From positions 1 through 20,168 of the IMG/VR virus record IMGVR_UViG_3300042534_000259: a DNA stretch of 20,168 nucleotides; one strand, given 5' to 3'. This DNA is from a virus. Positions 3,602 through 15,078 of the stretch are shown in pieces. Under the pieces are notes generated by a model, which saw only the letters and a program-made list of their open reading frames with translations, did not search any database and was not told where the DNA came from. Numbering within the stretch: the stretch's first letter is position 1; each line of letters opens with the position of its first letter. The position numbers were made by a program, and so were the translations under genes.

Positions 3602-6600
3602 TGCCTATTGATCCTTATGCTGGATTAGGTGTAGAAGAAGTTGAGGCTATAGACCCGTATGCAGGTATGGGCGTAGAAGCTCCTGTAAGCCTCTCTGCTG
3701 CGTCTACAGAAGAAGACCCTTATGCTGGTATGGGTGTAGAGGATGCTCCTGCTACAGAGTCTCCTATCACTCCTGAGATTAGGGCTACCGAAGGGTTCTG
3801 GAACACAATAGAATCTCCTATCACTATGATGAAGAAGGAGTCTATCCCTGCTCATCTTATTAAATACTTCACTACAACTAAAGAAGAGTTTGATGTAGCT
3901 AATGCATCAGAACGTAAAGATGCTATTCACAGTACACCTATTCTAGAAAGCATGAACCAACAGCTCGATAGATATGAGCGTAGGATTAATGAAGGAGTGG
4001 CTTCTCCAGAGCAGATAGAGCAATTTGGTTTACTGCAAGATGCTTATGGGGATATGTATCAGAAGATAGAAGCTGAGTATGAGAAGGGTGGTATTGACCC
4101 GGCAGAGATAGTTGGTGGATTGATTGATGCATTTAAGAATGATGCAGGTGGAACCACTGCTGAGATGCTTAACTCCCTGATGGCTACACCAGAGCTTATG
4201 CTTACACCTGTTGGGTGGGAGAAGGCTGCTATGTCTGCTGCTAAGCTTGGGGCTACTAAGGCTGCTCAGACAGCAGCAGGTATGACTGGGGCTGGTGTTA
4301 CTGCTGGAGGTGTAGTGGGGCTTGAGAGTGCCACTGCTGACCTTGCGGAGACAGGAGAGGTAGACCCTGTGGGAGTGGCTGTGGATACTTCTCTTGGAGC
4401 TTTCTTTGGCGCTGCCACTGTAGGCACTCTCAAGGGTGGTAGCAAACTACTTGGAGATATGGCTGAAAGAAAACTTCCTAAGCAAGTGGAAGCGGCTAGA
4501 GATATGGTTAGGGAGAGGGCTATTGAATTAATAGAAGACTCTCACTTACGTCAGATGCCTACAGAGCAAGCTGTCAAAAGAGCTATTGTAGAAACTAAGA
4601 TGTCACCTGATGTTAGAAGTAAACTCTCTGGCCCAGAAGAACTTAAGAGTGAGAAGTATTTCATCTCTGATGAAGAGGTAGCTGCTAAAGGCTCCCAGCT
4701 TGCGGATGAAATGCTGTCATGGAAAGGGAAGCTAAAGACTACGGGTAAAAGGATAGCTGAGACTATTGATGATACTCTCGGTGCTACAACAACTCGCCTT
4801 AGTATTATTGATCCTTCTCTTGGTCATTCATTGAAGCGTCATGATATGCAGCAAGCGGCTCGTATCAAGGGCTGGCTTGATATTAAAGATGAATACATTG
4901 ACATGCTTGATAGTGTCCCTAAGAAGAAGATTGGCACTGAAGGGCTAACCCTGCGTACTAAAGCTGAACAACTTATTAATAATGGAGAGCCTGAGCAGCT
5001 AAGAGAGTTGCTTATTGATGCGAAGATACCAGATGTAGAAGGTAAGATGAATGTCCTTACTAAGGTCTATGAGAAAATGGATCAGGACTTCGCCGATGCT
5101 AAGGCTGCTGGGATTAAGATGGGTGGAGAAGCTGGTAAGTTTTATTTCCCTAGGTCTATTAAAAACTATGAAGCACTAATGCAACGTAGAGGTTATAGAA
5201 AGACTGAGGTAGATAAGGCACTGGCTAAGTTTATTAATAGGAAGTATAAGGCTATTAATAAAAACTTTGAACCTGTATTACCTACCACTCTTACTAAAGA
5301 TAAGGTGAGTAAGTATCTTAGTAATCAAGAAGTAACTAAAGCCTTTAATGAATACTTTGGTGGTAGGGCTGATGCTAGTGGTGCATCCACCTCACATGTA
5401 GCCCCTCGTGTATTTGATAGGATTGCTTCTAATGAGATGGTTGACTATGCAGATACAGTGGAAGCATTAAACGAATACATCATCAATATGTCTGGCAAGA
5501 TTCAGGTAGGTAAGTTCTTTGGTGGTAAAGCTATCGTCGAAGGTGATGATGCTGTTAAGAAATCTATTGGTGAGTTTGCGGCTAAGTTATACAATAGCGG
5601 GAAGATTACTAATAAGGATCAAGAAGCTGTCAAGAAACTCTTATTCGCTAGGTTCGTAGAGAGTGCTAGGCAGACTAGCCCCACTGTGGCTGCTCTGAAA
5701 GACATTGGCTACATTGCCACTCTTGCTAATCCATTATCTGCTGGCACTCAGCTAGGTGATATTGGTAGTAGCTTCTATCTCACTAATGCAGCGGACACTG
5801 TTACCTCTATGGGTAAGGTGCTGAGTGGTAAGGCAGAGCTTAACATGAAGGAGATGGGGCTAGACAATATTGTACAAGAGTTTGAGCACCTAAGACCAAC
5901 AGCTAAGATACTTAAAAAATCTTTAGCTATGTCTGGGTTCTCTGCTGTTGATAGGTTGGGTAAGAACACCATCCTCAATGCTTCTCTCCGTCAGTATAGA
6001 CGTATGGCTAAAGATGTTAAGGGCAGAAATGATATTAGAGATAAGTATAGAGATGCATTTACCCCCAAGCAAATGAACAAGATGCTAGATGATCTAGAGA
6101 AAGGAGATGTTATGACAGATGATATTAAATATCTGGCATGGCATGAGCTATCCAGAGCACAGCCTATCTCTATGTCTGAGATGCCTCTTCACTATCTACG
6201 TCACCCCAATGCTCGTATGTTCTATGCATTAAAGACATTTACTATTAAGCAGTTGGATGCTATTCGTAGAGATGCATACCTTGAACTTAAGGCAGGTAAG
6301 CCCGGTAAGGCTACAGCTAATCTGGTTAGACATGCAGGTATCCTTGGCATCTCTAACGCTGGTGTAGAGGAGGTGAAGGCTTGGGTGCAAGGTAAGGAGA
6401 ATCCAGAGTTTGATGATTTAGTTTATACCACTATGATTCGTAACTATGGTATATCACAGTGGTTGCTAGAAAGAGAGAAGCCTTCTGAAGCTATCATCTC
6501 ACTGGTAACTCCTCCGTTCTTAGGAGTGATAGATGATATAACTTCTTTCATTGCTGGGTCTGATAAGCGTATGACTTCCTTCTCTGGATTGAGAAAGACT

Positions 6601-6630
6601 AAAGCTGCTATTACAGGAGAGGAAGACTAA
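3601..6630 (+). CDS. Large internal virion / DNA-ejection protein (1009 aa)
   Basis: This is the largest gene in the window. Residues 4-12, 18-26 and 39-47 are three near-identical DPYAG[L/M]GVE repeats separated by acidic linkers. Residues about 200-285 are Gly/Ala-rich and weakly hydrophobic (AAQTAAGMTGAGVTAGGVVG), like the glycine-zipper stretches of large phage ejection proteins that enter the cell envelope. The remainder is mainly charged alpha-helix, and a conserved-looking block near residues 850-990 carries Trp/Pro-rich turns. I see no lysozyme or transglycosylase motif. Size, position and composition fit the large internal core protein of T7-like podoviruses (gp16 analogue), expelled with the DNA; this is inference from architecture. 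TAATG junctions on both sides indicate coupling to its neighbours. Confidence 0.75.
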   Translation: MPIDPYAGLGVEEVEAIDPYAGMGVEAPVSLSAASTEEDPYAGMGVEDAPATESPITPEIRATEGFWNTIESPITMMKKESIPAHLIKYFTTTKEEFDVANASERKDAIHSTPILESMNQQLDRYERRINEGVASPEQIEQFGLLQDAYGDMYQKIEAEYEKGGIDPAEIVGGLIDAFKNDAGGTTAEMLNSLMATPELMLTPVGWEKAAMSAAKLGATKAAQTAAGMTGAGVTAGGVVGLESATADLAETGEVDPVGVAVDTSLGAFFGAATVGTLKGGSKLLGDMAERKLPKQVEAARDMVRERAIELIEDSHLRQMPTEQAVKRAIVETKMSPDVRSKLSGPEELKSEKYFISDEEVAAKGSQLADEMLSWKGKLKTTGKRIAETIDDTLGATTTRLSIIDPSLGHSLKRHDMQQAARIKGWLDIKDEYIDMLDSVPKKKIGTEGLTLRTKAEQLINNGEPEQLRELLIDAKIPDVEGKMNVLTKVYEKMDQDFADAKAAGIKMGGEAGKFYFPRSIKNYEALMQRRGYRKTEVDKALAKFINRKYKAINKNFEPVLPTTLTKDKVSKYLSNQEVTKAFNEYFGGRADASGASTSHVAPRVFDRIASNEMVDYADTVEALNEYIINMSGKIQVGKFFGGKAIVEGDDAVKKSIGEFAAKLYNSGKITNKDQEAVKKLLFARFVESARQTSPTVAALKDIGYIATLANPLSAGTQLGDIGSSFYLTNAADTVTSMGKVLSGKAELNMKEMGLDNIVQEFEHLRPTAKILKKSLAMSGFSAVDRLGKNTILNASLRQYRRMAKDVKGRNDIRDKYRDAFTPKQMNKMLDDLEKGDVMTDDIKYLAWHELSRAQPISMSEMPLHYLRHPNARMFYALKTFTIKQLDAIRRDAYLELKAGKPGKATANLVRHAGILGISNAGVEEVKAWVQGKENPEFDDLVYTTMIRNYGISQWLLEREKPSEAIISLVTPPFLGVIDDITSFIAGSDKRMTSFSGLRKTKAAITGEED
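3610..3741 (+). repeat. Three copies of a DPYAGxGVE coding motif
   Basis: The nine-residue motif DPYAG[L/M]GVE is encoded at 3610-3636, 3652-3678 and 3715-3741, at the extreme N-terminus of the 1009-aa protein. Peptide identity is 8 of 9 between copies, while the codons differ (gatccttatgct, gacccgtatgca, gacccttatgct). That argues for selection on the peptide rather than recent DNA slippage. The likely role is a multivalent docking or targeting tag; this is inference. Confidence 0.9.
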
Positions 6631-7898
6631 TGGGTACTGTGTGGGAATATGACGATGAGTGGAGCGCTCAAGTACAGTCAGATTTAGCTTCTATTAGGGG
6701 AGAGTTAGCTAAGACCCCTATCTGGGAGGATGTAGAGGGAGGAATAAAAGCAACTGAGCCTGAGCATAAACCCACTGCTACACCTATATTAGATGCACCT
6801 CTATCTTTTATCTCTGGTGAGTATAAGCCAGATATAGAGAAAGATACAGGTCTATTAAGTAGACTCTCAGAATATTTTAAACAGGATGTTAGTCAGACCG
6901 CTGAGTTCTTTGGTGGAGCTACGGCTGATATGTTGAAGAAGTCTCAGGTTGGTGAAGAACCAAGCGTAGTGGATTACGCCCTGTCTGGGGCTGAGATGCT
7001 ACCTATGGCTGGTGCTGGAATAACAACTTGGCATGGAAGTGGAGCACTCTTTAATAGGTTAAGTCATAAGTTTATGGATAGTGGAGAAGGTGCTCAAATA
7101 AAAGGTTGGGGTACTTACTTAGCAGAATCTAAAGATGTAGGTAAAGCATACCAAGATAGCGTGGGTAGAAAAATACTATTATCAGATGATGGAAGCCCTA
7201 AGAACTTCCTTAATAGGATGTTTGAATCAGCAGATGCTACAGAGAGTTCTCTACTTAAAGCTAGAGAAGATATACTTGGCAGGAAGAAAAGAGGTTTAGC
7301 TAATGGGGATAAAGAATTTGTTGAAAAGATGGACGGTGCTTTAAAACTACTAGATGAAGGATACTCTCCTAAAAGTACAGGACACTTATATGAAGTAGAC
7401 TTACCAGACGAAGCTATAGATAAGATGCTTGATTTAGATAAGCCACTCTCTAAGCAAAGTGAATATATAAAAAAGGTTTTGAATAAAGACCCGCTCTTTA
7501 AAGCTCAGAAAGATAAAGTGGAGTCTGCAAGAAAGGCTGCTGTAGATAGGTTTGAAAGAGAGGGGTACAGCAACCTTTCTAGAACTGCTGGGGCTAAGCA
7601 AAGAGAGCTAACTAGAATAAATACTTTTAGGAATAACCCTGAATATGACCCTAACGGGGAGAGTATTTATGATATGGTATATTCTGTAGGTTTAAGTAAA
7701 CACCCTAAAGCTGGAGTTAGTAAAGAGTATTCAGATCCTAAAGCGGCTTCTGAATACTTAGACTCTATTGGTATAAAGGGTAATAAATATCTAGATGCTG
7801 GAAGTAGATCAGCTAATGACGGTACTAAGAACTTCGTAGTATTCAATGAAGACACGGCTAAGATATTAAAGAGGGATGATATAAAGATCAATGAGTAA
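6630..7898 (+). CDS. Virion-operon ADP-ribosyltransferase-like protein (ART-PolyVal domain, 422 aa)
   Basis: The C-terminal two thirds match the ADP-ribosyltransferase domain of phage polyvalent proteins. H135 sits in TTWHGSGALF. The family signature GEGAQIKGWGTYLAES is at residues 152-167, with Y163 as the probable NAD-stacking tyrosine. LYEVDLPDEAIDKMLD with DKPLSKQSEY follows, and the last motif KYLDAGSR...NFVVFNED is near residues 390-408. These are the H, Y and terminal elements of the H-Y-x class; the catalytic third residue is not certain. Residues 1-125 are a separate acidic region with a short Ala/Gly stretch, perhaps for packaging. The predicted reaction is transfer of ADP-ribose from NAD+ to a host target. 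Encoded next to the large internal protein, it could be ejected with the DNA, as T4 Alt is; that is inference. Confidence 0.8.
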   Translation: MGTVWEYDDEWSAQVQSDLASIRGELAKTPIWEDVEGGIKATEPEHKPTATPILDAPLSFISGEYKPDIEKDTGLLSRLSEYFKQDVSQTAEFFGGATADMLKKSQVGEEPSVVDYALSGAEMLPMAGAGITTWHGSGALFNRLSHKFMDSGEGAQIKGWGTYLAESKDVGKAYQDSVGRKILLSDDGSPKNFLNRMFESADATESSLLKAREDILGRKKRGLANGDKEFVEKMDGALKLLDEGYSPKSTGHLYEVDLPDEAIDKMLDLDKPLSKQSEYIKKVLNKDPLFKAQKDKVESARKAAVDRFEREGYSNLSRTAGAKQRELTRINTFRNNPEYDPNGESIYDMVYSVGLSKHPKAGVSKEYSDPKAASEYLDSIGIKGNKYLDAGSRSANDGTKNFVVFNEDTAKILKRDDIKINE

Positions 7899-8418
7899 TA
7901 AAATTCTCCTTATAGGTAATGGTAGTAATGTAGCTAACTTCAATGAAGAAGACTATGATACAATAGTAAGATTCAACTGGGGGATAAAAGATAAGGGGAG
8001 GACAGATGCTTGGGTGGATGCCTTGCTACAGCATGAGAACAAGTTAATGTTCCATTATGATAGAGCAGGTAGACCTGAGATATGGAGATTAAACGGGGAG
8101 AGTAGACATAGACTAAGCCAGATGCCTAGTGAGTGGTACCCTAGCACTACCTTCATTTCAGAAAGAAACTATAATAGGATGAAGAATGAATTCAATAGTA
8201 TGTGGAAACCTTCTATTGGGTTTGTTTGTATTTGGTGGTTGATTAATGTTCAGAACGAACGAGACATAACTATCACCGGCTTTGATAGCGGTGTTAGTAA
8301 GAATAGATATACAGATGAAATGCCATATACATCACATGATTGGGGAAAGGAGAGACTCTGGATTGAGTCCCTCATTTCCGATGGGTCAATTAAGAGACTA
8401 GATCCCAATCATCACTAA
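7891..8418 (+). CDS. GT29/sialyltransferase-like glycosyltransferase (175 aa)
   Basis: Three motifs of GT29-type sialyltransferase-like proteins occur in order. The first is the L motif, ILLIGNGSNVANF...YDTIVRFN (residues 5-29), a nucleotide-binding Rossmann-like start. The second is the S-like motif, KPSIGFVCIWWLIN...ITITGFD (106-132). The third is HDWGKE (149-154), equal to the H-x4-E sialylmotif VS. No signal peptide or membrane anchor is present, as expected for a phage cytoplasmic or virion enzyme. The family normally uses CMP-sugar donors; the donor and acceptor here cannot be read. The start codon ATG sits in ATGAGTAA across the preceding stop (8-bp overlap), so it is coupled to the ADP-ribosyltransferase gene. 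It is the last + strand gene, and its 3' end overlaps the opposing Tad2-like gene by 29 bp. Confidence 0.75.
   Translation: MSNKILLIGNGSNVANFNEEDYDTIVRFNWGIKDKGRTDAWVDALLQHENKLMFHYDRAGRPEIWRLNGESRHRLSQMPSEWYPSTTFISERNYNRMKNEFNSMWKPSIGFVCIWWLINVQNERDITITGFDSGVSKNRYTDEMPYTSHDWGKERLWIESLISDGSIKRLDPNHH
8115..8132 (+). repeat. 18-bp direct repeat, copy 1
   Basis: The sequence aagccagatgcctagtga is found exactly here and again at 10822-10839; extending three bases to the left adds ac plus one mismatch. This copy lies in the sense strand of the GT29-like gene. Confidence 0.8.
8390..8418. other. Tail-to-tail overlap of the two convergent operons
   Basis: The + strand GT29-like gene ends at 8418 and the - strand Tad2-like gene ends at 8390, so both coding sequences share 29 bp in antisense. 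There is no intergenic space and no GC-rich hairpin with T-run in the neighbourhood on either strand. Transcripts from both blocks would therefore have antisense 3' ends. Confidence 0.9.
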
Positions 8419-8662
8419 GAAGATCAGATTGACTAGCCACCCAAGGAACGATAGTTCCATCTGCTGTTTTCATATCAATATGTGGCTGATAATTGATTTC
8501 AGTACCCTCTGGGTAAATGCCCAGAAGAGGCTTCCTATTGACTATAAAGGTTGAGCCGGGGACTAAAAAGATAAACATCCCCTTACCATTCCATCCAGCC
8601 CTTGCTACTTTTCTTCCGGCAAGTATCGCCATTATTGCCCATGCAAAACTACTGTCTTTCAT
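8390..8662 (-). CDS. tad2: Tad2-like anti-Thoeris protein (DUF2829, 90 aa)
   Basis: The start at 8662 has AGGAG 7 nt upstream; the longer frame to 8749 would run into the upstream gene without a ribosome site. The protein follows DUF2829 closely: a helix with FAWAIMAILAGRKVARAGWNGKGMF (given in two parts: residues 6-18 and 19-30), a beta hairpin FIFLVPGS, then YQPHIDMKTADGTIVPW at 58-74 and the closing ASQSDLLSDDWDLV at 76-89. DUF2829 proteins include Tad2, a tetrameric sponge that binds the cyclic ADP-ribose isomer made by Thoeris TIR proteins and so stops the NADase effector. Family membership is well supported; that this copy counters Thoeris is inference. It is the last gene of the leftward block. 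Confidence 0.85.
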   Translation of the reverse strand: MKDSSFAWAIMAILAGRKVARAGWNGKGMFIFLVPGSTFIVNRKPLLGIYPEGTEINYQPHIDMKTADGTIVPWVASQSDLLSDDWDLVS

Positions 8663-8675
8663 TTGTTTTCTCCTA

Positions 8676-9194
8676 TTAAAAGGTTGTAAGGAAAAGGATT
8701 CCATTACGCTTATGTTTATGCTTCTTGGTAGCTCCGAAGACAGCTCCAATCTTATCAGCCCACCAAGCAGCGGGTTTAACAGTGGTGTGGGCTTGCTCTC
8801 CGTTAGGTAGCCTACAAGCTGCTTCTACTAGGCTGATAACAAATACAGCTTTATCACTAAGTCTGTAAATATCTTGTAGCACTTCATCAACTGCTGCCTC
8901 TGGCACATGCTCCATCACATCTAGGCAAGTAACAACATCAACATCGCTAGGGTCTGGTTGTTCCTGATATTTAGGAATGGCTGGGTCGTAGCGATGTTTT
9001 ACTTTGTTAGGCATTAGGTCAACAAATTCAGACTGACCGCAACCATAATCCAGAAGGCTATCAAACTCACGGACAAGAGGAGCAATAGCCCCAGCAAGAT
9101 GCTTGCTGCTAACACCATATACTTTACTAGAGTGCAACTGTTTATACTGATCAATATAATAACCCTTGATATCCTCTTCTCTACTAACTGCCAT
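8676..9194 (-). CDS. Class I SAM-dependent methyltransferase (172 aa)
   Basis: Motif I, LLDYGCGQSEFVDLMP (residues 47-62), has the GxG loop that binds S-adenosylmethionine. DVVTCLDVMEHVP (86-98) is the typical post-II/motif IV strand with the DVMEH signature of methyltransf_11/23-type enzymes. Residues 115-125 form a further core strand (KAVFVISLVEAA), and the Lys/His-rich C-terminus could bind nucleic acid. At 172 aa it is a minimal single domain without a target-recognition region. No DPPY/NPPY or PC motif is present, so it is not an evident DNA methylase; small molecule, cap or protein substrates are all possible. Its ATG overlaps the upstream stop (TAATG), and the Tad2-like gene follows after 13 bp. 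Confidence 0.85.
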   Translation of the reverse strand: MAVSREEDIKGYYIDQYKQLHSSKVYGVSSKHLAGAIAPLVREFDSLLDYGCGQSEFVDLMPNKVKHRYDPAIPKYQEQPDPSDVDVVTCLDVMEHVPEAAVDEVLQDIYRLSDKAVFVISLVEAACRLPNGEQAHTTVKPAAWWADKIGAVFGATKKHKHKRNGILFLTTF

Positions 9195-9394
9195 TAAATA
9201 ATCTCCTTCTTAGGTCTTCCGGGTGAACGCTTAGGTGAGGTAAGGATAAAAGATTGGAAGTATTCAACCCTAGTGCTCTCTCCTTTAATCACCATACCGC
9301 CTATTGGTTCATACCCATTGTCTGTCTCATGATTACATCTCTCTACGAACCTTGCTAGGTCTGTAGAGGCAACAACCTTATAGCTTTCAGCCAT
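9194..9394 (-). CDS. DUF1737-like protein with AT-hook-like tail (66 aa)
   Basis: The first 35 residues, YKVVASTDLARFVERCNHETDNGYEPIGG (here residues 5-33, written as the key strings YKVVASTDL and GYEPIGG), follow the DUF1737 pattern of a short alpha/beta unit. The last 14 residues hold KRSPGRPKKE (55-64), a basic stretch around a GRP core like an AT-hook, which binds the minor groove of A/T-rich DNA. A DUF1737 fold joined to a DNA-binding tail would suit a small DNA-associated accessory protein, but no function is established that I can rely on. It overlaps the upstream zincin gene by 8 bp and is coupled to the methyltransferase by TAATG. Confidence 0.7.
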   Translation of the reverse strand: MAESYKVVASTDLARFVERCNHETDNGYEPIGGMVIKGESTRVEYFQSFILTSPKRSPGRPKKEII

Positions 9395-9680
9395 ATAAAC
9401 TCTCCATAAATTTCTTATTCTCTTTCAATAGAGAATGAATACCTAAAGCTACACCATCTGTCTGTTGTTCAGAGAGATCGAGCTGTAGCAGCCCATCAAT
9501 AATATGTATCACTTCATGCAATGTAGTAGAACAGATTGCATCATGCGGCATTGTTGAATTAATTAAAACAGTTAGCTCAGAAGAACTAGCCATACCCATA
9601 CCGCCCTGTCTCCACATACCCGGATCTTCTAGGGTGTATGTAATATCATGTGATAACACCTTTATCTTCTTTGTCGCCAT
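9387..9680 (-). CDS. Small zincin-like metalloprotease-fold protein (97 aa)
   Basis: The motif TTLHEVIHIIDG (residues 53-63) is a clear HExxH zinc site (H55, E56, H59). Glu71 in LSEQQTDGVALGIHSLL is a good candidate for the third ligand, the spacing and following helix being like those of ImmA/IrrE-type and other minimal gluzincins. The N-terminus supplies a beta hairpin and an edge strand (ELTVLINS) usual for substrate pairing. At 97 residues it is close to the minimum for a working zincin. It could cleave a host regulator or be a structural remnant; the substrate cannot be read. It overlaps the genes on both sides (19 bp upstream, 8 bp downstream). Confidence 0.75.
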   Translation of the reverse strand: MATKKIKVLSHDITYTLEDPGMWRQGGMGMASSSELTVLINSTMPHDAICSTTLHEVIHIIDGLLQLDLSEQQTDGVALGIHSLLKENKKFMESLYG

Positions 9681-10018
9681 GCCTTGCTCCTCTTCCTTTG
9701 TTGCTCACTGGCTTTAAATAACTCATCCCAGCTTTGATATAGATTACAATCAATATGCGTATAGGCAAGCTCCTGTGCAGCTCTATACCTATTACACCCC
9801 TTATCCACTCTTAGTGTTCCATCTTCAAGCACTAGAATAGCCAATGGTTCTAGTAGCCCTTCCTTCTCTATACTTGTTGTAACATCTCTTTGGACTTTCC
9901 AGTTTTCAATCTCTGCTACTAATGGTACTAAAGAATTAATGGGGATACTTAATGTGTTCTCGTTCCTGTTTTTTGCTCTCAGTGCTCTCTGCTTCTGCTG
10001 CGGTATAGACTTCTCCAA
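9662..10018 (-). CDS. ParB/Srx-like nuclease-domain protein A (118 aa, TTG start)
   Basis: Residues 43-95 form a ParB-type N-terminal domain: RDVTTSIEKEGLLEPLAILV, then a strand DGTLRVDKG and the box CNRYRAAQELAYTHIDC (75-91), corresponding to the GxRRYxAAxxxG box of ParB. No helix-turn-helix follows, so this is a stand-alone ParB-like domain. The C-terminus SEQQRKRSKAWRQRR is strongly basic and holds the QQ[K/R] motif also present in the other two ParB-like proteins here. There is no ATG; the TTG at 10018 has GGGAG 7 nt upstream but gives an 83-bp overlap with the upstream gene, so a later non-canonical start (ATT near 9933) cannot be excluded. Confidence 0.7.
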   Translation of the reverse strand: MEKSIPQQKQRALRAKNRNENTLSIPINSLVPLVAEIENWKVQRDVTTSIEKEGLLEPLAILVLEDGTLRVDKGCNRYRAAQELAYTHIDCNLYQSWDELFKASEQQRKRSKAWRQRR

Positions 10019-10154
10019 CCTTTGCTCCCAGTTGTTCTACAAAATGTGTGAAATAAGTTTCTGCTACCCCTGCATTATCTAGGGGGAGCTTAACACTGAC
10101 TTGTTCTTCTGTACCAATCATACAAATCAATTCAATATTCTCTACTTTTACCAT
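9936..10154 (-). CDS. Hypothetical protein (72 aa)
   Basis: I chose the ATG at 10154 because it overlaps the upstream stop as TAATG; the frame open to 10205 starts inside the ParB-like gene. The protein begins with two short beta strands (VKVENIELICMIG, QVSVKLPLD), then a helix (VAETYFTHFVEQLG), and ends in a charged Glu/Lys/His tail. I do not recognise it. It lies between two ParB-like genes and partly overlaps the start of the downstream one, suggesting that it belongs to the same functional group. Confidence 0.55.
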   Translation of the reverse strand: MVKVENIELICMIGTEEQVSVKLPLDNAGVAETYFTHFVEQLGAKVGEVYTAAEAESTESKKQEREHIKYPH

Positions 10155-10513
10155 TATATCAATGCTCCATACTTCTGTTTGTGCCACTTCTGCTGTCGAA
10201 AGCATTCTTCTCCAGCCTTACCACTATCAATATAGACTAAAGCTCTCACTTTGTCAATACCTTTCCTCTTTAAATATTCCACTCTATTATGCCCACACCT
10301 AATCTGCATGATGATCTCATCATCTTCTACATCAGGTGGATCATTAATAAAAGGAACAGCTAACTTCTGAGCTGCCCATGTAGCCTTGTCTGTCAGTAAG
10401 ACTACTATAGGCTGCTCTATCTCCTCATTCTCCAAGATGGCTGATAGCTCATTAATAGCCTTAGCCCAAGTCATTGGGTAGAGGTCAGAGATATTAAGCT
10501 CTACTTCTTCCAT
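10154..10513 (-). CDS. ParB/Srx-like nuclease-domain protein B (119 aa)
   Basis: The core is a ParB-like domain: strand IEQPIVVLLTDK (32-43), an insertion ending DPPDVEDDEII, and the box MQIRCGHNRVEYLKRKGIDK (69-88), where CGHNR is in the place of ParB GxRR. The insertion and box closely resemble those of protein C at 12195-12605 (PP-x-x-x-DEx-x-QIRCGxNR), so these two look like paralogues. The C-terminus CFRQQKWHKQKY (104-115) has the C-x-x-QQK-x-x-KQ motif shared with C. The domain in other proteins has CTPase or nuclease activity; which applies here is unknown. It is joined by TAATG to the primase-helicase stop upstream and to the 72-aa gene downstream. Confidence 0.75.
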   Translation of the reverse strand: MEEVELNISDLYPMTWAKAINELSAILENEEIEQPIVVLLTDKATWAAQKLAVPFINDPPDVEDDEIIMQIRCGHNRVEYLKRKGIDKVRALVYIDSGKAGEECFRQQKWHKQKYGALI

Positions 10514-12207
10514 TAGAATTCTTTCTCCCCTCCATCACTCTTTGCTGGATTATCTACAGGTGTCATCCAACCTGTCTTATCATCGAAGAATAAGAAATCG
10601 GCTGGGCCTGTCCTGCCCGTGAAGCGGCACTTAAGTACATGCAAATGCGAGGTGTTTCGTAAGTCATCGTCCTCTGCCTGTTGATCTCTAGATAAAGCGT
10701 AGACGTTATTACTGAGCTGCTTAATACTACCGCTACCGCGTAAGTCATCCAGTGTTGGAACTGCCCCTTCTTCAAAACTCTTACCCCCACCTGTTGTCTT
10801 ACGAAGGTGAACAATCAAACCAAGCCAGATGCCTAGTGATTGTGTCAGATTCTTAAGCTTAGTCATAATAGAATCAATGCGCTCTCTCTCACCACCCTCT
10901 GAAGCAAACTCAGACACCACAATAGAGAGATGGTCTAGGAAAATGTACTTACAATCAAGGGCTTTAGCCATGTATGTAATCTTCTTAATCAAGCTATTAT
11001 CATCCACACTACCGAAGTGGTCGTATAGATGAATCCTGTTGCCACCAGCTACGGCCTTCCATGCTGTGTGCATCTCCTCGTCACTGATAGTGCCCCTAAC
11101 ATCTGGGAGAGATATACGCTTACGCATTTCAAGCGCCATGAGAGCCTCTACAGTATCCTCTAATGGTTCTTCTAAGGCAATGATACCAATGCTATCCTCA
11201 GTCTTCTCTAACAAATGTTTCTGAAGGATACGCACTACCTGTGTCTTACCCATCCCACTACCAGAAGTCCATGTATCAAGCTCCCCAATACGCATACCAT
11301 AGGTCATCCTATTGAGGCTGTTCCAACCATCAGGGTATGGGATGCTATCCACCTTTGGTCTATTCTTAATACGATCCCATGTATCAGCCCCAGAGATGAT
11401 GCCGTCAGGTCTAGCTGCTGTAGCTTGGAATAGAGACTTATAAAACTCCTCTGTCTTACCAGCTTGTAGCATAGCGTTAGCATCCTTCTCACTGAAGGTC
11501 ATTGTCTTAACCTTACCGGGAGAGAATAGATCAATAGCTTCCTTGGTAATCTTCTTACCGGGTTCATCCTGATCAAAGCAAAGAACAATATGCTGATGTT
11601 GCTCTAGCCAGTCCACGTTTACACGCAACCCTTGCTTATTGGCACCATTAGGGAGACTCACCACAGCATAGTCTTTACCCTTATCAAAGAACATTTGCTT
11701 AGCTGCCATAGCATCGTCTTCACCTTCGGTGATAATAATCATCTTACGAGGATTACCTACCATATGCTTACCAAATAAATCTGGTTGCTTAGCATTACCC
11801 GTAGAGCCAAAAGATTTATTAACAGATTTATATTTATATCCTGCAAACTTATCTTTTACATATAGAGGGTAGTACCACTTAACCACTTTATTAGTAGCTT
11901 CATCTCTCTCAATCCTAACCCCGTACATTTCAGCAACAGCTTCCTTAATACCCCTTGGAGTGATGTCTCCAAATGAAGTGCGCTGCTCTACTTCTTCTAT
12001 GGTTAGCTTAGGTGCTAAAGTTCTTACATTACTAGCACTACTCAAAGCTGTCATTATATCTCCATCTTCCTGTATGTGTTGGTAGTCCTTACCGCATGAA
12101 TAGCAATACCCATTAAAGGTGCCATCCTCTCTCTTATATATAGCGAATGCATCAGAGCTACCGCACTCTTCTGATGGACAGGCTGTATGGCGTATTAGCT
12201 CACCCAT
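10513..12207 (-). CDS. T7 gp4-like DNA primase-helicase (564 aa)
   Basis: This protein primes and unwinds DNA at the fork. A zinc-binding domain with C10-x4-C15 and C35-x2-C38 reads the primase template. A TOPRIM domain follows, with ITEGEDDAMAAK (about 158-170) and LCFDQDEPGKK (about 206-216) supplying metal-binding acidic residues. The RecA-like DnaB/gp4 helicase has Walker A GSGMGKT (about 314-320), Walker B KYIFLDHLS and later motifs LIVHLRK and LRGSGSIKQLSNNVYAL. The length matches T7 gp4 (566 aa). I preferred the ATG at 12207, with AGAGGA 6 nt upstream; ATG 12225 would add six residues with a weaker site. Both flanking genes encode ParB-like proteins. The C-terminus is acidic (AEDDD earlier, final EKEF), as in gp4 where the tail contacts polymerase. 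Confidence 0.95.
   Translation of the reverse strand: MGELIRHTACPSEECGSSDAFAIYKREDGTFNGYCYSCGKDYQHIQEDGDIMTALSSASNVRTLAPKLTIEEVEQRTSFGDITPRGIKEAVAEMYGVRIERDEATNKVVKWYYPLYVKDKFAGYKYKSVNKSFGSTGNAKQPDLFGKHMVGNPRKMIIITEGEDDAMAAKQMFFDKGKDYAVVSLPNGANKQGLRVNVDWLEQHQHIVLCFDQDEPGKKITKEAIDLFSPGKVKTMTFSEKDANAMLQAGKTEEFYKSLFQATAARPDGIISGADTWDRIKNRPKVDSIPYPDGWNSLNRMTYGMRIGELDTWTSGSGMGKTQVVRILQKHLLEKTEDSIGIIALEEPLEDTVEALMALEMRKRISLPDVRGTISDEEMHTAWKAVAGGNRIHLYDHFGSVDDNSLIKKITYMAKALDCKYIFLDHLSIVVSEFASEGGERERIDSIMTKLKNLTQSLGIWLGLIVHLRKTTGGGKSFEEGAVPTLDDLRGSGSIKQLSNNVYALSRDQQAEDDDLRNTSHLHVLKCRFTGRTGPADFLFFDDKTGWMTPVDNPAKSDGGEKEF
10822..10839 (+). repeat. 18-bp direct repeat, copy 2
   Basis: This is the second exact copy of aagccagatgcctagtga. 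Here it is on the antisense strand of the primase-helicase gene, in the segment coding for the LGIWLGLI region, so the two copies cannot be explained by a shared peptide. Confidence 0.8.
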
Positions 12208-12605
12208 ATCCCATCCTCTTTCCATTGCTTCATTTCTTTCTGCTGCTGTTTACACATCTTATTAGCTCCCTGCATTGTTAATGCATTATGTACCATTATG
12301 GATTTAACACCAGCTTCCATTGCTGCCCAGTAACGATTGTTGCCACACCTAATTTGATAAACTACTTCTTCATCTGGTAGATTGGGCGGAGGAAGTAAGT
12401 GAGGATTACTTTCACATAACTCCTTCCATTCCCGCACTGTCATAGGTACAACAACCAGAGGGCGTAATAGCCCATCTCTCTCTATACTAGCCTTAAGCTC
12501 TTCGTAAAACTCATAGTCATATACTTCTACAGATGGGTAAATATCTTTAATTAAAAGAAAGAGTTCTATGCAAGTAGCTTTCTTAGTTATCCACTGCTTA
12601 TTCAT
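12195..12605 (-). CDS. ParB/Srx-like nuclease-domain protein C (136 aa)
   Basis: Residues 34-110 form a ParB-like domain: helix EELKASIERDGLLRPLVVVP (35-54), an inserted segment with PPPNLPDEE, and the box YQIRCGNNRYWAAMEAGVKS (83-102). No helix-turn-helix follows. The tail MCKQQQKEMKQWKEDG (117-132) contains C-x-x-QQK-x-x-KQ, almost identical in pattern to the end of protein B. The N-terminal 20 residues are hydrophobic (CIELFLLIKDIYP) and resemble the strand that begins ParB domains rather than a signal peptide. It overlaps the primase-helicase gene by 13 bp and the upstream SLOG gene by 8 bp, so all are probably translated together. Confidence 0.75.
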   Translation of the reverse strand: MNKQWITKKATCIELFLLIKDIYPSVEVYDYEFYEELKASIERDGLLRPLVVVPMTVREWKELCESNPHLLPPPNLPDEEVVYQIRCGNNRYWAAMEAGVKSIMVHNALTMQGANKMCKQQQKEMKQWKEDGIWVS

Positions 12606-12936
12606 AAAAGAATACCTTTACATATAACCCTTTCTTAACTGCTGTCTCAATCATACCTTTAGTCCCTTTAGATTTACCATCCCAAAAAGCTACAAGAGCT
12701 TCAGCATACTTAGCCATTTCTGAGTTACGGATATGCCCAGCAGCTTTACCATGCTTATTCCAATCAGCAGGAAAGAGTTTAACAGGATTATCTCCAGCCC
12801 ACCTCTCCCCTAGTCGGTCAGCTCCCTTAGCTGTACCTGAAACCACTTCAGAAACTACCCAAGGAATCTCGTCCATACTTTCACAGAGCATTGTGAAGTC
12901 GTTGAAATCCCTACCCCCTGCTATGATAGTTCTCAT
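12598..12936 (-). CDS. SLOG-superfamily YAcAr/DUF2493 protein (112 aa)
   Basis: The sequence follows the DUF2493 (YAcAr, YspA) family from end to end: MRTIIAGGRDFND (1-13), a Rossmann-like strand and ligand loop; VVSGTAKGADRLGERWA (31-47); LFPADWNKHGKAAGHIRNSE (54-73); and FWDGKSKGTKGMIETA (84-99). This single-domain SLOG group is predicted to bind nucleotides or nucleotide-derived ligands such as ADP-ribose derivatives; no reaction is established that I can cite for phage copies. The length is typical for a stand-alone domain. The start overlaps the upstream stop as ATGA. Confidence 0.9.
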   Translation of the reverse strand: MRTIIAGGRDFNDFTMLCESMDEIPWVVSEVVSGTAKGADRLGERWAGDNPVKLFPADWNKHGKAAGHIRNSEMAKYAEALVAFWDGKSKGTKGMIETAVKKGLYVKVFFYE

Positions 12937-13157
12937 GCAAAATCCCCAGTGTCCCTTAATGTGCGCTTATACAAGCCAACACCATAAAGCTTAACTGCAC
13001 CTACACCATTAATGATGTGCTTGGTAGCACCCCCACAGCGGGGGCACTCTCCAGAATTAGCACGATCATCTATTGGTTGTCTGTACTCAAAGGTAGTTGG
13101 ATTACCCTCTTCATCTACACACTCTTCATTTAGACATTGCCCAATATATATTGCCAT
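12933..13157 (-). CDS. FmdB-like zinc-ribbon protein (74 aa)
   Basis: Four cysteines in two pairs, C8-x4-C13 and C38-x2-C41 (ECPRCGG), make a zinc ribbon, and FEYRQPIDDR between them is the typical FmdB-like middle strand. The C-terminus VKLYGVGLYKRTLRDTGDFA (56-74) resembles the endings of many small phage FmdB-like proteins. The role is unknown; a small nucleic-acid- or protein-binding adaptor is the usual suggestion. It shares an ATGA overlap with the SLOG gene downstream and is separated by 2 bp from the upstream membrane-protein gene. Confidence 0.75.
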   Translation of the reverse strand: MAIYIGQCLNEECVDEEGNPTTFEYRQPIDDRANSGECPRCGGATKHIINGVGAVKLYGVGLYKRTLRDTGDFA

Positions 13158-13159
13158 AA

Positions 13160-13363
13160 TTATTTTACTTTAAATAAAGGGTATAGGAAGATAGCGATAC
13201 CTATGAAGGAAAGTGAGGCTATGGTAATAAGTGGAGAAAGTACCCACCACCAAGACCAATCAATTACCCCTGTCAACTTAAGTCCTATAAGGAGTAGCGT
13301 TAGTCCACCAATAAAACCAATGCCACTACTACTATTATTATTAGTTTCTTTTATATACATCAT
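13160..13363 (-). CDS. Small two-helix membrane protein (67 aa)
   Basis: The start at 13363 forms TAATG with the reductase stop; the three extra upstream residues of the open frame are not needed. Residues 14-34 (GIGFIGGLTLLLIGLKLTGVI) and about 38-63 are two hydrophobic segments linked by a short DWSWWW turn, after a Ser/Asn-rich leader encoded by a run of ACT and ATT triplets on the + strand. This layout matches a widespread phage family of small membrane proteins sometimes labelled transmembrane Fragile-X-F. A holin-like function is possible but its place in the nucleotide-metabolism operon, away from a lysin, argues against it. The function is unknown. Confidence 0.7.
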   Translation of the reverse strand: MMYIKETNNNSSSGIGFIGGLTLLLIGLKLTGVIDWSWWWVLSPLITIASLSFIGIAIFLYPLFKVK

Positions 13364-15078
13364 TATCCACACTCCTTTTTCCCTGTACTGGGATCAACGT
13401 AACAGGCAGTTGCCACCTCACCACCACTGTCTTCATCAGCAGAGTTTAAAATACCATACCTTTTACCAGCAGCTCTGAATGTCGTACAACCCTTACACTT
13501 ACCTTTCCATGCCTTAACATATATATCCTTAAACTCATCCCAAGAGACATTCTCTCCTACGTTCAATGTTTTAGATACCGCTGAGTCCACCCACTTAGTA
13601 GCTGTTATTAGTACATTCAAGTGCTCATCTGTAGTACACTCATCTGCTCTCTTACCACTGACACCTAGCTCTCTATACCCATAGTCTGTAACTCTCTCAA
13701 CCTTAGCGCCAAGCTCTGTCTGTATTGTCCGATCAAAGAAATAACTAAACACAGGCTCACATCCACTAGATACATTATCAGCACTGAGGCTGATAGTGCC
13801 AGTGGGGGCTATACTAAGGAGGTGTGAGTTACGGATACCATTGGTAGCTATTAACTCTTGAACATCCTTATCAAGCCTCTTAATAAACTTACCTTCAAGA
13901 TACTTCTCCTTATCAAACAACGGGAAGCTTCCTTTCTCTGCTGCTAAGTTAGCAGATGCCCTATAAGATTCATTCGCTAGTACCCTACCAACCTTGTCTT
14001 CAAACTTAAGGAACTCTTTAGAGCCGTACACAAACCCAAGAGCTTCTCCAGTATTAGCTAGGGCTGTATACCCAAGCCCCATACGACGTTTACTCTTAGC
14101 TTCAGCTTCTTGCTCAGGTAGTGGGTATATAGTATTGTCCACCACATTGTCCATAGCCCGTACAACAATAGGAATATCAGCTTTGAATTGTTCCCAATCA
14201 AGCTTATATCCGTTGCTCTTATCGTGCAATAAATACTTAACAAGATTAAAGCTACCGAGTAGACAGGCACCGTGAGGGGGGAGGGGTTGTTCCCCACATG
14301 GGTTGGTAGCCGCAATAGTCTCACAGTACCAGAGATTATTCATCTCATTGATACGGTCGATATATAAGACACCGGGTTCTGCCCAATCCCAAGTAGCTCT
14401 CATAATCTTATCCCATAGATAACGGGCATCTACACGCTTATACACCCTACCACTAAACTTAAGATCGAAGCTACCACCAGCAAGCATAGCTTCCATAAAC
14501 TCATCAGTGATTCCTACAGACAAATTGAATTGTTTAAACTCTGTTTCGTTTGCTTTTGCTTCAATGAACTCTTCAATATCAGGGTGGTCTACACGCATGA
14601 CTCCCATCTGAGCACCCCTACGATGCCCAGCACTACTGACTGTAGCACAAATAGCATTGTAGATATTCATGAAAGAGAGAGGGCCACTGCTCTTGCTATC
14701 CAAAGAGACAATTAGGTCTCCCCTAGGGCGTAGTGTAGAGAAGTCATAGCCAATTCCCCCACCTAAACGCATAGTCTGGAAGGCTTGGTCAGCTACTTGC
14801 ATAATACCTTTAGAGCTATCCTCTATAGTCTGAGAGACAAAGCAGTTAAAAGCAGTTGTCTGTCTAGGGCTACCTACACTACTCTGAACACGACCTGCTG
14901 GTAGGAATTTTTGTGGTAATAGAATCTCTCTCCATGCCTCGAAATGATTTCTATTATCAGCCAAAGCATTACCAATCCTACTACATTTCTCTCTGTGGCT
15001 TTCTCCCTCTTGTCTGTACTTCATCTCATCTATCTCTATTGAGATAGGAAGTGTTGGGCCTTGATATGTTTTAATCAT
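13363..15078 (-). CDS. nrdJ: Adenosylcobalamin-dependent (class II) ribonucleotide reductase (571 aa)
   Basis: It makes deoxyribonucleotides for phage DNA. The ten-stranded barrel landmarks are present: TTAFNCFVSQ (C79, one of the disulphide-forming cysteines), the finger loop ATNPCGEQPLPPHG with the radical Cys at about 261, GSFNL, MGLGYTALA, and APTGTISLSAD. The C-terminus has CKGCTTFR and a final Cys pair region ending KKECG, probably the redox shuttle. The overall order matches the NrdJ single-chain B12 class; there is no ATP cone at the N-terminus and no NrdB gene in the window. Dependence on adenosylcobalamin means the host must make or import B12. AAGGAGAG precedes the ATG by 3-4 nt and the start overlaps the upstream gene as ATGA. 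Confidence 0.95.
   Translation of the reverse strand: MIKTYQGPTLPISIEIDEMKYRQEGESHREKCSRIGNALADNRNHFEAWREILLPQKFLPAGRVQSSVGSPRQTTAFNCFVSQTIEDSSKGIMQVADQAFQTMRLGGGIGYDFSTLRPRGDLIVSLDSKSSGPLSFMNIYNAICATVSSAGHRRGAQMGVMRVDHPDIEEFIEAKANETEFKQFNLSVGITDEFMEAMLAGGSFDLKFSGRVYKRVDARYLWDKIMRATWDWAEPGVLYIDRINEMNNLWYCETIAATNPCGEQPLPPHGACLLGSFNLVKYLLHDKSNGYKLDWEQFKADIPIVVRAMDNVVDNTIYPLPEQEAEAKSKRRMGLGYTALANTGEALGFVYGSKEFLKFEDKVGRVLANESYRASANLAAEKGSFPLFDKEKYLEGKFIKRLDKDVQELIATNGIRNSHLLSIAPTGTISLSADNVSSGCEPVFSYFFDRTIQTELGAKVERVTDYGYRELGVSGKRADECTTDEHLNVLITATKWVDSAVSKTLNVGENVSWDEFKDIYVKAWKGKCKGCTTFRAAGKRYGILNSADEDSGGEVATACYVDPSTGKKECG

Follow-up and report, generated by a model that had tools for sequence, protein, structure and literature searches.

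Here we describe three genes in a viral DNA fragment, IMG/VR record IMGVR_UViG_3300042534_000259 (20,168 bases, analysed over its whole length and referred to below as the window), whose products, P1, P2 and P3, are diverged paralogues of a ParB/Srx domain and of nothing else. The block formed by these genes is a conserved unit in related phages, and the primase-helicase gene that lies within it in the window is best read as a lineage-specific insertion and not as part of that unit. With slightly less than even confidence, we propose that the three proteins are ParB-fold modules that bind nucleotides and work jointly, and that they constitute neither a partition system nor an accessory of the helicase. 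The four genes are:

12195..12605, minus strand: P1, single-domain ParB/Srx-fold protein of 136 amino acids (Pfam, AlphaFold2, Foldseek)
10513..12225, minus strand: T7-type primase-helicase with zinc ribbon, Toprim and DnaB_C domains (PHROG 239, 2.4e-160)
10154..10513, minus strand: P2, single-domain ParB/Srx-fold protein of 119 amino acids (paralogy with P1, AlphaFold2, Foldseek)
9662..10018, minus strand: P3, single-domain ParB/Srx-fold protein of 118 amino acids with a TTG start (Pfam, PHROG, alignment)

A first-pass annotation, made from the sequence alone, had placed three proteins at these positions and given each a stand-alone ParB/Srx domain lacking a helix-turn-helix. The open reading frames (ORFs) are confirmed at those positions, all on the minus strand, and the domain assignment is upheld by structural models for P1 and P2 and by profile for P3. 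In every comparison third codon positions vary most, as expected of coding constraint on all three genes. Against the Pfam family ParB_N (PF02195), P1 scores 26.8 bits (E=5.6e-6), just over the cut-off of 26.3 bits, while P3 (E=0.0015) stays under it and P2 has no Pfam match of any kind in the search of the window proteins, so that profile evidence is positive for P1, sub-threshold for P3 and absent for P2, which was recovered through its structure. P3 also matches PHROG 4715 at 7.5e-8. As measured by Smith-Waterman z over shuffles, the paralogy of P1 and P2 is beyond doubt (z 21.6, far outside chance) and that of P1 and P3 is clear (z 11.6); the direct P2-P3 comparison is weak (z 3.1, with 25 of 2000 shuffles equally good) and on its own would not be convincing.

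The AlphaFold2 models of P1 and P2 have predicted local distance difference test scores of 90.6 and 92.1, respectively. Foldseek places ParB crystal structures, several of them nucleotide-bound, at the top for P1 (7bm8, 4.8e-5) and ParB/Noc structures first for P2 (Noc 7ng0, 7.6e-5); since its predicted structure matches ParB and Noc despite the lack of a Pfam match, P2 too is taken to be a ParB-fold protein. The predicted fold of P3 rests on Pfam, PHROG and the alignment, and those of P1 and P2 on the models. Relatives gathered from IMG/VR (the L-numbered loci) allowed an alignment of 29 members of the P1/P2/P3 family, whose profile matches PDB entries at 1e-4 to 1e-3, namely sulfiredoxin (the best, 1.3e-4), Noc (1.7e-4), ParB (5e-4) and also Spo0J; a direct hhalign comparison with Spo0J gives 94.6% and E 7e-8. 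In the P1 model the elements are b1 (residues 12-18), a1 (31-44), b2 (50-56), an inserted helix (57-66), b3 (81-87), the GNNR motif (88-91), a3 (89-97), b4 (102-108) and a4 (111-131). Only three columns are invariant in all 29 members: the box I proline (P49 in P1) and the glycine and arginine of GxxR (G88 and R91), the motif reading GNNR in P1, GHNR in P2 and GCNR in P3. In box I, P2 has the proline but not the glycine. The 118-136 residues of the three proteins are filled by the ParB/Srx fold, with neither a helix-turn-helix nor a C-terminal dimerisation domain.

Two features that had been singled out in the first-pass annotation take on a different meaning in the context of the family. The box PP...DE...QIRCG.NR and the ending C-x-x-QQK-x-x-KQ are present in P1 and P2 as described, and P3 does end in SEQQRKRSKAWRQRR. 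The box corresponds to the b2-b3 segment, which is built as a helix (residues 57-66 in P1) with a Pro-Pro turn; this insertion is not peculiar to P1 and P2 but is found across the whole family, is missing from ParB and Srx, and has been lost from P3 in both the window and L008 while persisting in that of L002 (10840-11229). A special C-terminal tail was rejected: the residues of the "QQK tail" form the terminal helix, a4 (111-131 in P1 and 97-118 in P2), with a degenerate box III, and a shared tail is to be expected because the common fold ends in this helix. The ENLQR motif of Spo0J (sequence taken from PDB alignments) aligns onto helix a4 with the conserved Q of the family on its own Q, and the preceding E-N is replaced by C-K, C-F/K or S-E; the global hhalign alignment joins the same two regions, with low confidence there. 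The E and N of ParB box III (ENxQR) are required for CTP hydrolysis.

The genes that accompany the trio, apart from the primase-helicase, are:

12933..13157, minus strand: FmdB-like zinc-ribbon protein, left boundary of the block, position kept in relatives
9936..10205, minus strand: small conserved ORF of 89 amino acids between P2 and P3, overlapping both, of no known family
9194..9394, minus strand: DUF1737-like small protein, right side of the block, with counterparts in relatives
8676..9194, minus strand: class I S-adenosylmethionine (SAM) methyltransferase (Methyltransf_23, Pfam 2.6e-7), right end of the block

In L002, a 56.7 kb contig, the row runs zinc ribbon (9756-9977), P1, P2, small ORF (10653-10895), P3, DUF1737-like gene (11168-11488) and methyltransferase, and L008 has the same row (zinc ribbon 5004-5198, small ORF 5928-6134, DUF1737-like 6399-6614). 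The window shows this order with three extra genes, encoding a SLOG protein, the primase-helicase and an HExxH protein, and L096 has the zinc ribbon (7660-7911), two ParB paralogues, the DUF1737-like gene (8658-8843) and the methyltransferase. The amplification of one fold in one operon, as originally remarked, is therefore maintained as one unit across related phages. In a phylogenetic tree the orthologues of P1, P2 and P3 each form their own supported clade, with deeper branching left without resolution, which indicates that the trio already existed before the phages of the window, L002 and L008 diverged. Its proteins are 40-70% identical between these phages and the adjoining methyltransferases 78-85%, so the trio evolves faster; methyltransferase homologues also occur in L012, L013 and L096. 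The small ORFs of the window and of L013 showed no homology. An obligate link to the methyltransferase was rejected, because a scan of 80 loci from the methyltransferase family recovered a ParB-type protein almost only in phages already known to carry one, making the link one-sided.

The primase-helicase is tightly joined to its neighbours in the window: the end of P1 runs a short way over its start (possibly at 12207), and its stop overlaps P2 as TAATG. One paralogue does abut each side of the gene, as had been noted, and yet the proposal built on this, a multi-part machine working with the replication fork around the primase-helicase, is not supported by comparison with relatives. P1, P2, the small ORF and P3 are contiguous without it in L002 and L008, and BLAST found no primase-helicase homologue in the phage of L002, which has a separate DnaB_C helicase (8.8e-9) about 12 kb upstream of the trio, next to a PolA gene and an ORF that looks primase-like by eye and has no Pfam match. 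The phage of L096 has a homologue (41% identity, truncated where the contig stops) at a distance of 11 kb from its ParB genes; roseophage CRP-9 has one too (7106-8653), 29 kb distant. The arrangement of a helicase between ParB genes is absent from every relative examined; co-occurrence in related phages thus holds for the three genes with each other and not with the primase-helicase. We read the latter as an insertion because relatives keep the same block order without it. The gene has evidently moved, lying within the block in the window and 11-29 kb off in L096 and CRP-9.

The wider family is broader than the trio. Since relatives were collected by a scan with the peptide YTHIDC, which biases the collection towards its carriers, copy numbers must be read with care: they range from 1 to 3 per phage, with two members each in L012, L013/L014, L015, L023 and L096 (adjacent in L096, L015 and L023) and one in most other records. 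Proteins of about 240 amino acids with two ParB-type domains per chain were found at five loci, suggesting that such domains function in pairs:

L084: 1409-2131, two-domain chain
L071 (L071/L072): 678-1388, two-domain chain
L085: 3699-4421, two-domain chain
L089: 7432-8154, two-domain chain
L086: 2-697, two-domain chain

Ten related members that were tested all fall under the PF02195 cut-off or lack a match, as do P2 and P3. When P1, P3 of L002 and members from L015, L029 and L096 were used as tblastn queries against named phages, the sole significant relative was gp50 of CRP-9, whose gene overlaps that of the methyltransferase gp51; a search of host genomes returned one locus, in a metagenome-assembled genome. 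Also common are viral proteins of 302-305 amino acids, at loci between L037 and L088 (e.g. L070:7749-8657), in which an N-terminal ParB-type domain with YTHIDC is followed by a methyltransferase-like (SAM) region to which Pfam gave nothing.

How might these proteins work? That they act together is argued by their kept adjacency, their joint inheritance and the existence of fused pairs; for nucleoside triphosphate (NTP) binding, oligomerisation and function we infer the following scheme. Each protein would most likely bind an NTP at the pocket formed by box I and GxxR, and would form homo- or hetero-oligomers in the way that CTP-bound ParB N-domains pair, and these oligomers would govern a nucleic-acid transaction that the last part of the phage's DNA-metabolism module encodes. 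Since box III has lost its E-N, NTP binding would be kept, with ParB-type hydrolysis weakened or carried out otherwise, and a nucleotide sensor or slow switch is likelier than a fast CTPase. The earlier suggestion of nucleotide sensing gains plausibility by analogy, given that the fold binds nucleotides in characterised relatives. Several points weigh against this scheme. One or more of the proteins may not bind nucleotide, judging from the absence of the box I glycine in P2 and of a canonical ENxQR in all three; of 28 well-purified proteins with the fold, no more than 11 showed NTP binding (PMC12704722); the trio as such was found in three phages only (the window, L002 and L008); and the three proteins are without a known partner or substrate. 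Which NTP a ParB-fold protein binds is not predictable, and an R-to-A change in GxxR has served as a non-binding control (PMC12704722).

Other readings account for parts of the same evidence. The three proteins could be the specialised subunits of one hetero-oligomer of ParB-fold modules, e.g. two binding nucleotide and one structural, serving on nucleic acid as a clamp or switch gated by an NTP, in a system that has neither ParA nor helix-turn-helix nor centromere; we regard so specific an assembly as unlikely. The main rival, which we think improbable, is that they are NTP-regulated and largely non-specific nickases or nucleases acting on host or phage DNA, a role already suggested for further ParB/Srx domains from phages and plasmids (Osa, ParB-methylase, DdrB-like; PMC5512222). 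It draws on the same fold and conserved arginine, on activity reported for related ParB/Srx domains (PMC5512222) and on a "ParB-like partition nuclease" among the PHROGs nearest to P3, but such PHROG names are annotations only, the 29 members conserve no metal-binding acid or nuclease signature beyond P, G and R, and a non-specific nickase needs no three-fold set. The faster evolution of the trio relative to the methyltransferase and its variable copy number would equally suit independent anti-defence or host-modulating proteins, arms-race duplicates with a shared scaffold and separate targets. The conserved order, immediate adjacency and fused pairs speak against this, as does the lack of a match for the trio among the defence families of PADLOC, a library without counter-defence proteins, and we rate such a role no higher than the nuclease one.

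Two further readings appear far less probable. A sulfiredoxin- or SerK-like enzyme transferring phosphoryl groups from ATP to a small molecule or protein would fit the best profile match, the Srx-like single-domain size and the neighbouring ribonucleotide reductase and other nucleotide genes; we consider it very unlikely, given that only the P3 proteins of the window and L008 (GCNR) have the Srx-type cysteine, which L002 P3 has lost (GNNR), that no peroxiredoxin gene was found in seven phage records, and that SerK-type proteins are about twice as long. Least credible is a set of accessory subunits around the primase-helicase at the fork, which is favoured by adjoining, overlapping genes in the window contig alone and is mostly refuted by gene order in L002, L096 and CRP-9.

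In the window the DNA-metabolism block occupies the minus strand, its genes running from 20151 down to 8676, and near 8.4 kb it runs head to head into genes of the plus strand. A SLOG/YAcAr-type nucleotide-binding protein (12598-12936) precedes P1 and is absent from that place in L002, L008 and L096, and a metallopeptidase-like protein with TTLHEVIH (HExxH; 9387-9680) between P3 and the DUF1737-like gene is missing from the corresponding place in L002 and L008. Ribonucleotide reductase genes lie near the block in the window (13363-15078), L002 (7071-9179), L008 (3061-5004) and L096 (3726-6987), in roughly corresponding positions and of differing type: the window has NrdJ_Z, L008 a B12 type that carries an insertion domain, and L096 two-subunit-like genes. 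This has the look of replacement in situ. A GNG...VRFNWG protein (window 7891-8418; L008 7105-7614), duplicated in L002 (12000-12536 and 12533-13051), resembles sialyltransferase-type glycosyltransferases by eye and has no Pfam match.

Recognition of the ParB fold as a general module for binding NTPs is recent, and stand-alone versions in phages have been noted that have no known function. The present trio is a compact, naturally occurring set of three such domains that have diverged and yet remained together as the phages evolved. Small and expressible, it lends itself to asking whether ParB-fold domains form heteromeric pairs and what is switched when no DNA-binding domain is attached to them. 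As the branch is mostly invisible to Pfam, Pfam-based surveys miss it.

Compared with the N-terminal CTPase domain of ParB and Noc (Spo0J, Caulobacter ParB), the trio shares the fold, the box I proline, GxxR and the conserved Q of the terminal helix, but has an extra helix and lacks a helix-turn-helix, a dimerisation domain, a ParA gene and the E-N of box III. A ParABS partition system was rejected on the absence of ParA, helix-turn-helix, dimerisation domain and canonical ENxQR; ParA (PF13614) was absent from seven phage records, several of them fragments, and found in 14 of 14 controls. Sulfiredoxin is likewise a single ParB/Srx domain of similar length with a profile match, but the family has no conserved catalytic cysteine (GCHR) and no peroxiredoxin partner gene, and identity with it was rejected; peroxiredoxin (PF00578) was absent from the same seven records and present in the 14 controls, though the host may supply a peroxiredoxin. 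The DdrB-like domains and phage "ParB-like nucleases" are also phage ParB/Srx domains without ParA, and nuclease or NTPase activity is reported for several single or fused domains (PMC5512222), but they sit mostly in large multidomain proteins or near late genes, whereas those described here are lone domains in a DNA-metabolism block. Nearest are the phage proteins of about 100 amino acids in the 2025 survey of Kaljevic et al. (PMC12704722), in which the ParB-CTPase fold is all there is and which are considered true single-domain proteins. The first-pass statement that no system of this layout had been described holds for a conserved set of three lone ParB-fold proteins, for which searches of an open-access library gave no description, and not for the single-domain kind. 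That survey started from PF02195, and with P2, P3 and ten relatives under the cut-off it probably did not see this branch. The trio shares with the surveyed proteins a length of about 100-130 residues, the fold alone, GxxR and the absence of helix-turn-helix and ParA, and it extends them, mostly below Pfam detection, with three diverged paralogues in one operon, a b2-b3 insertion and an altered box III.

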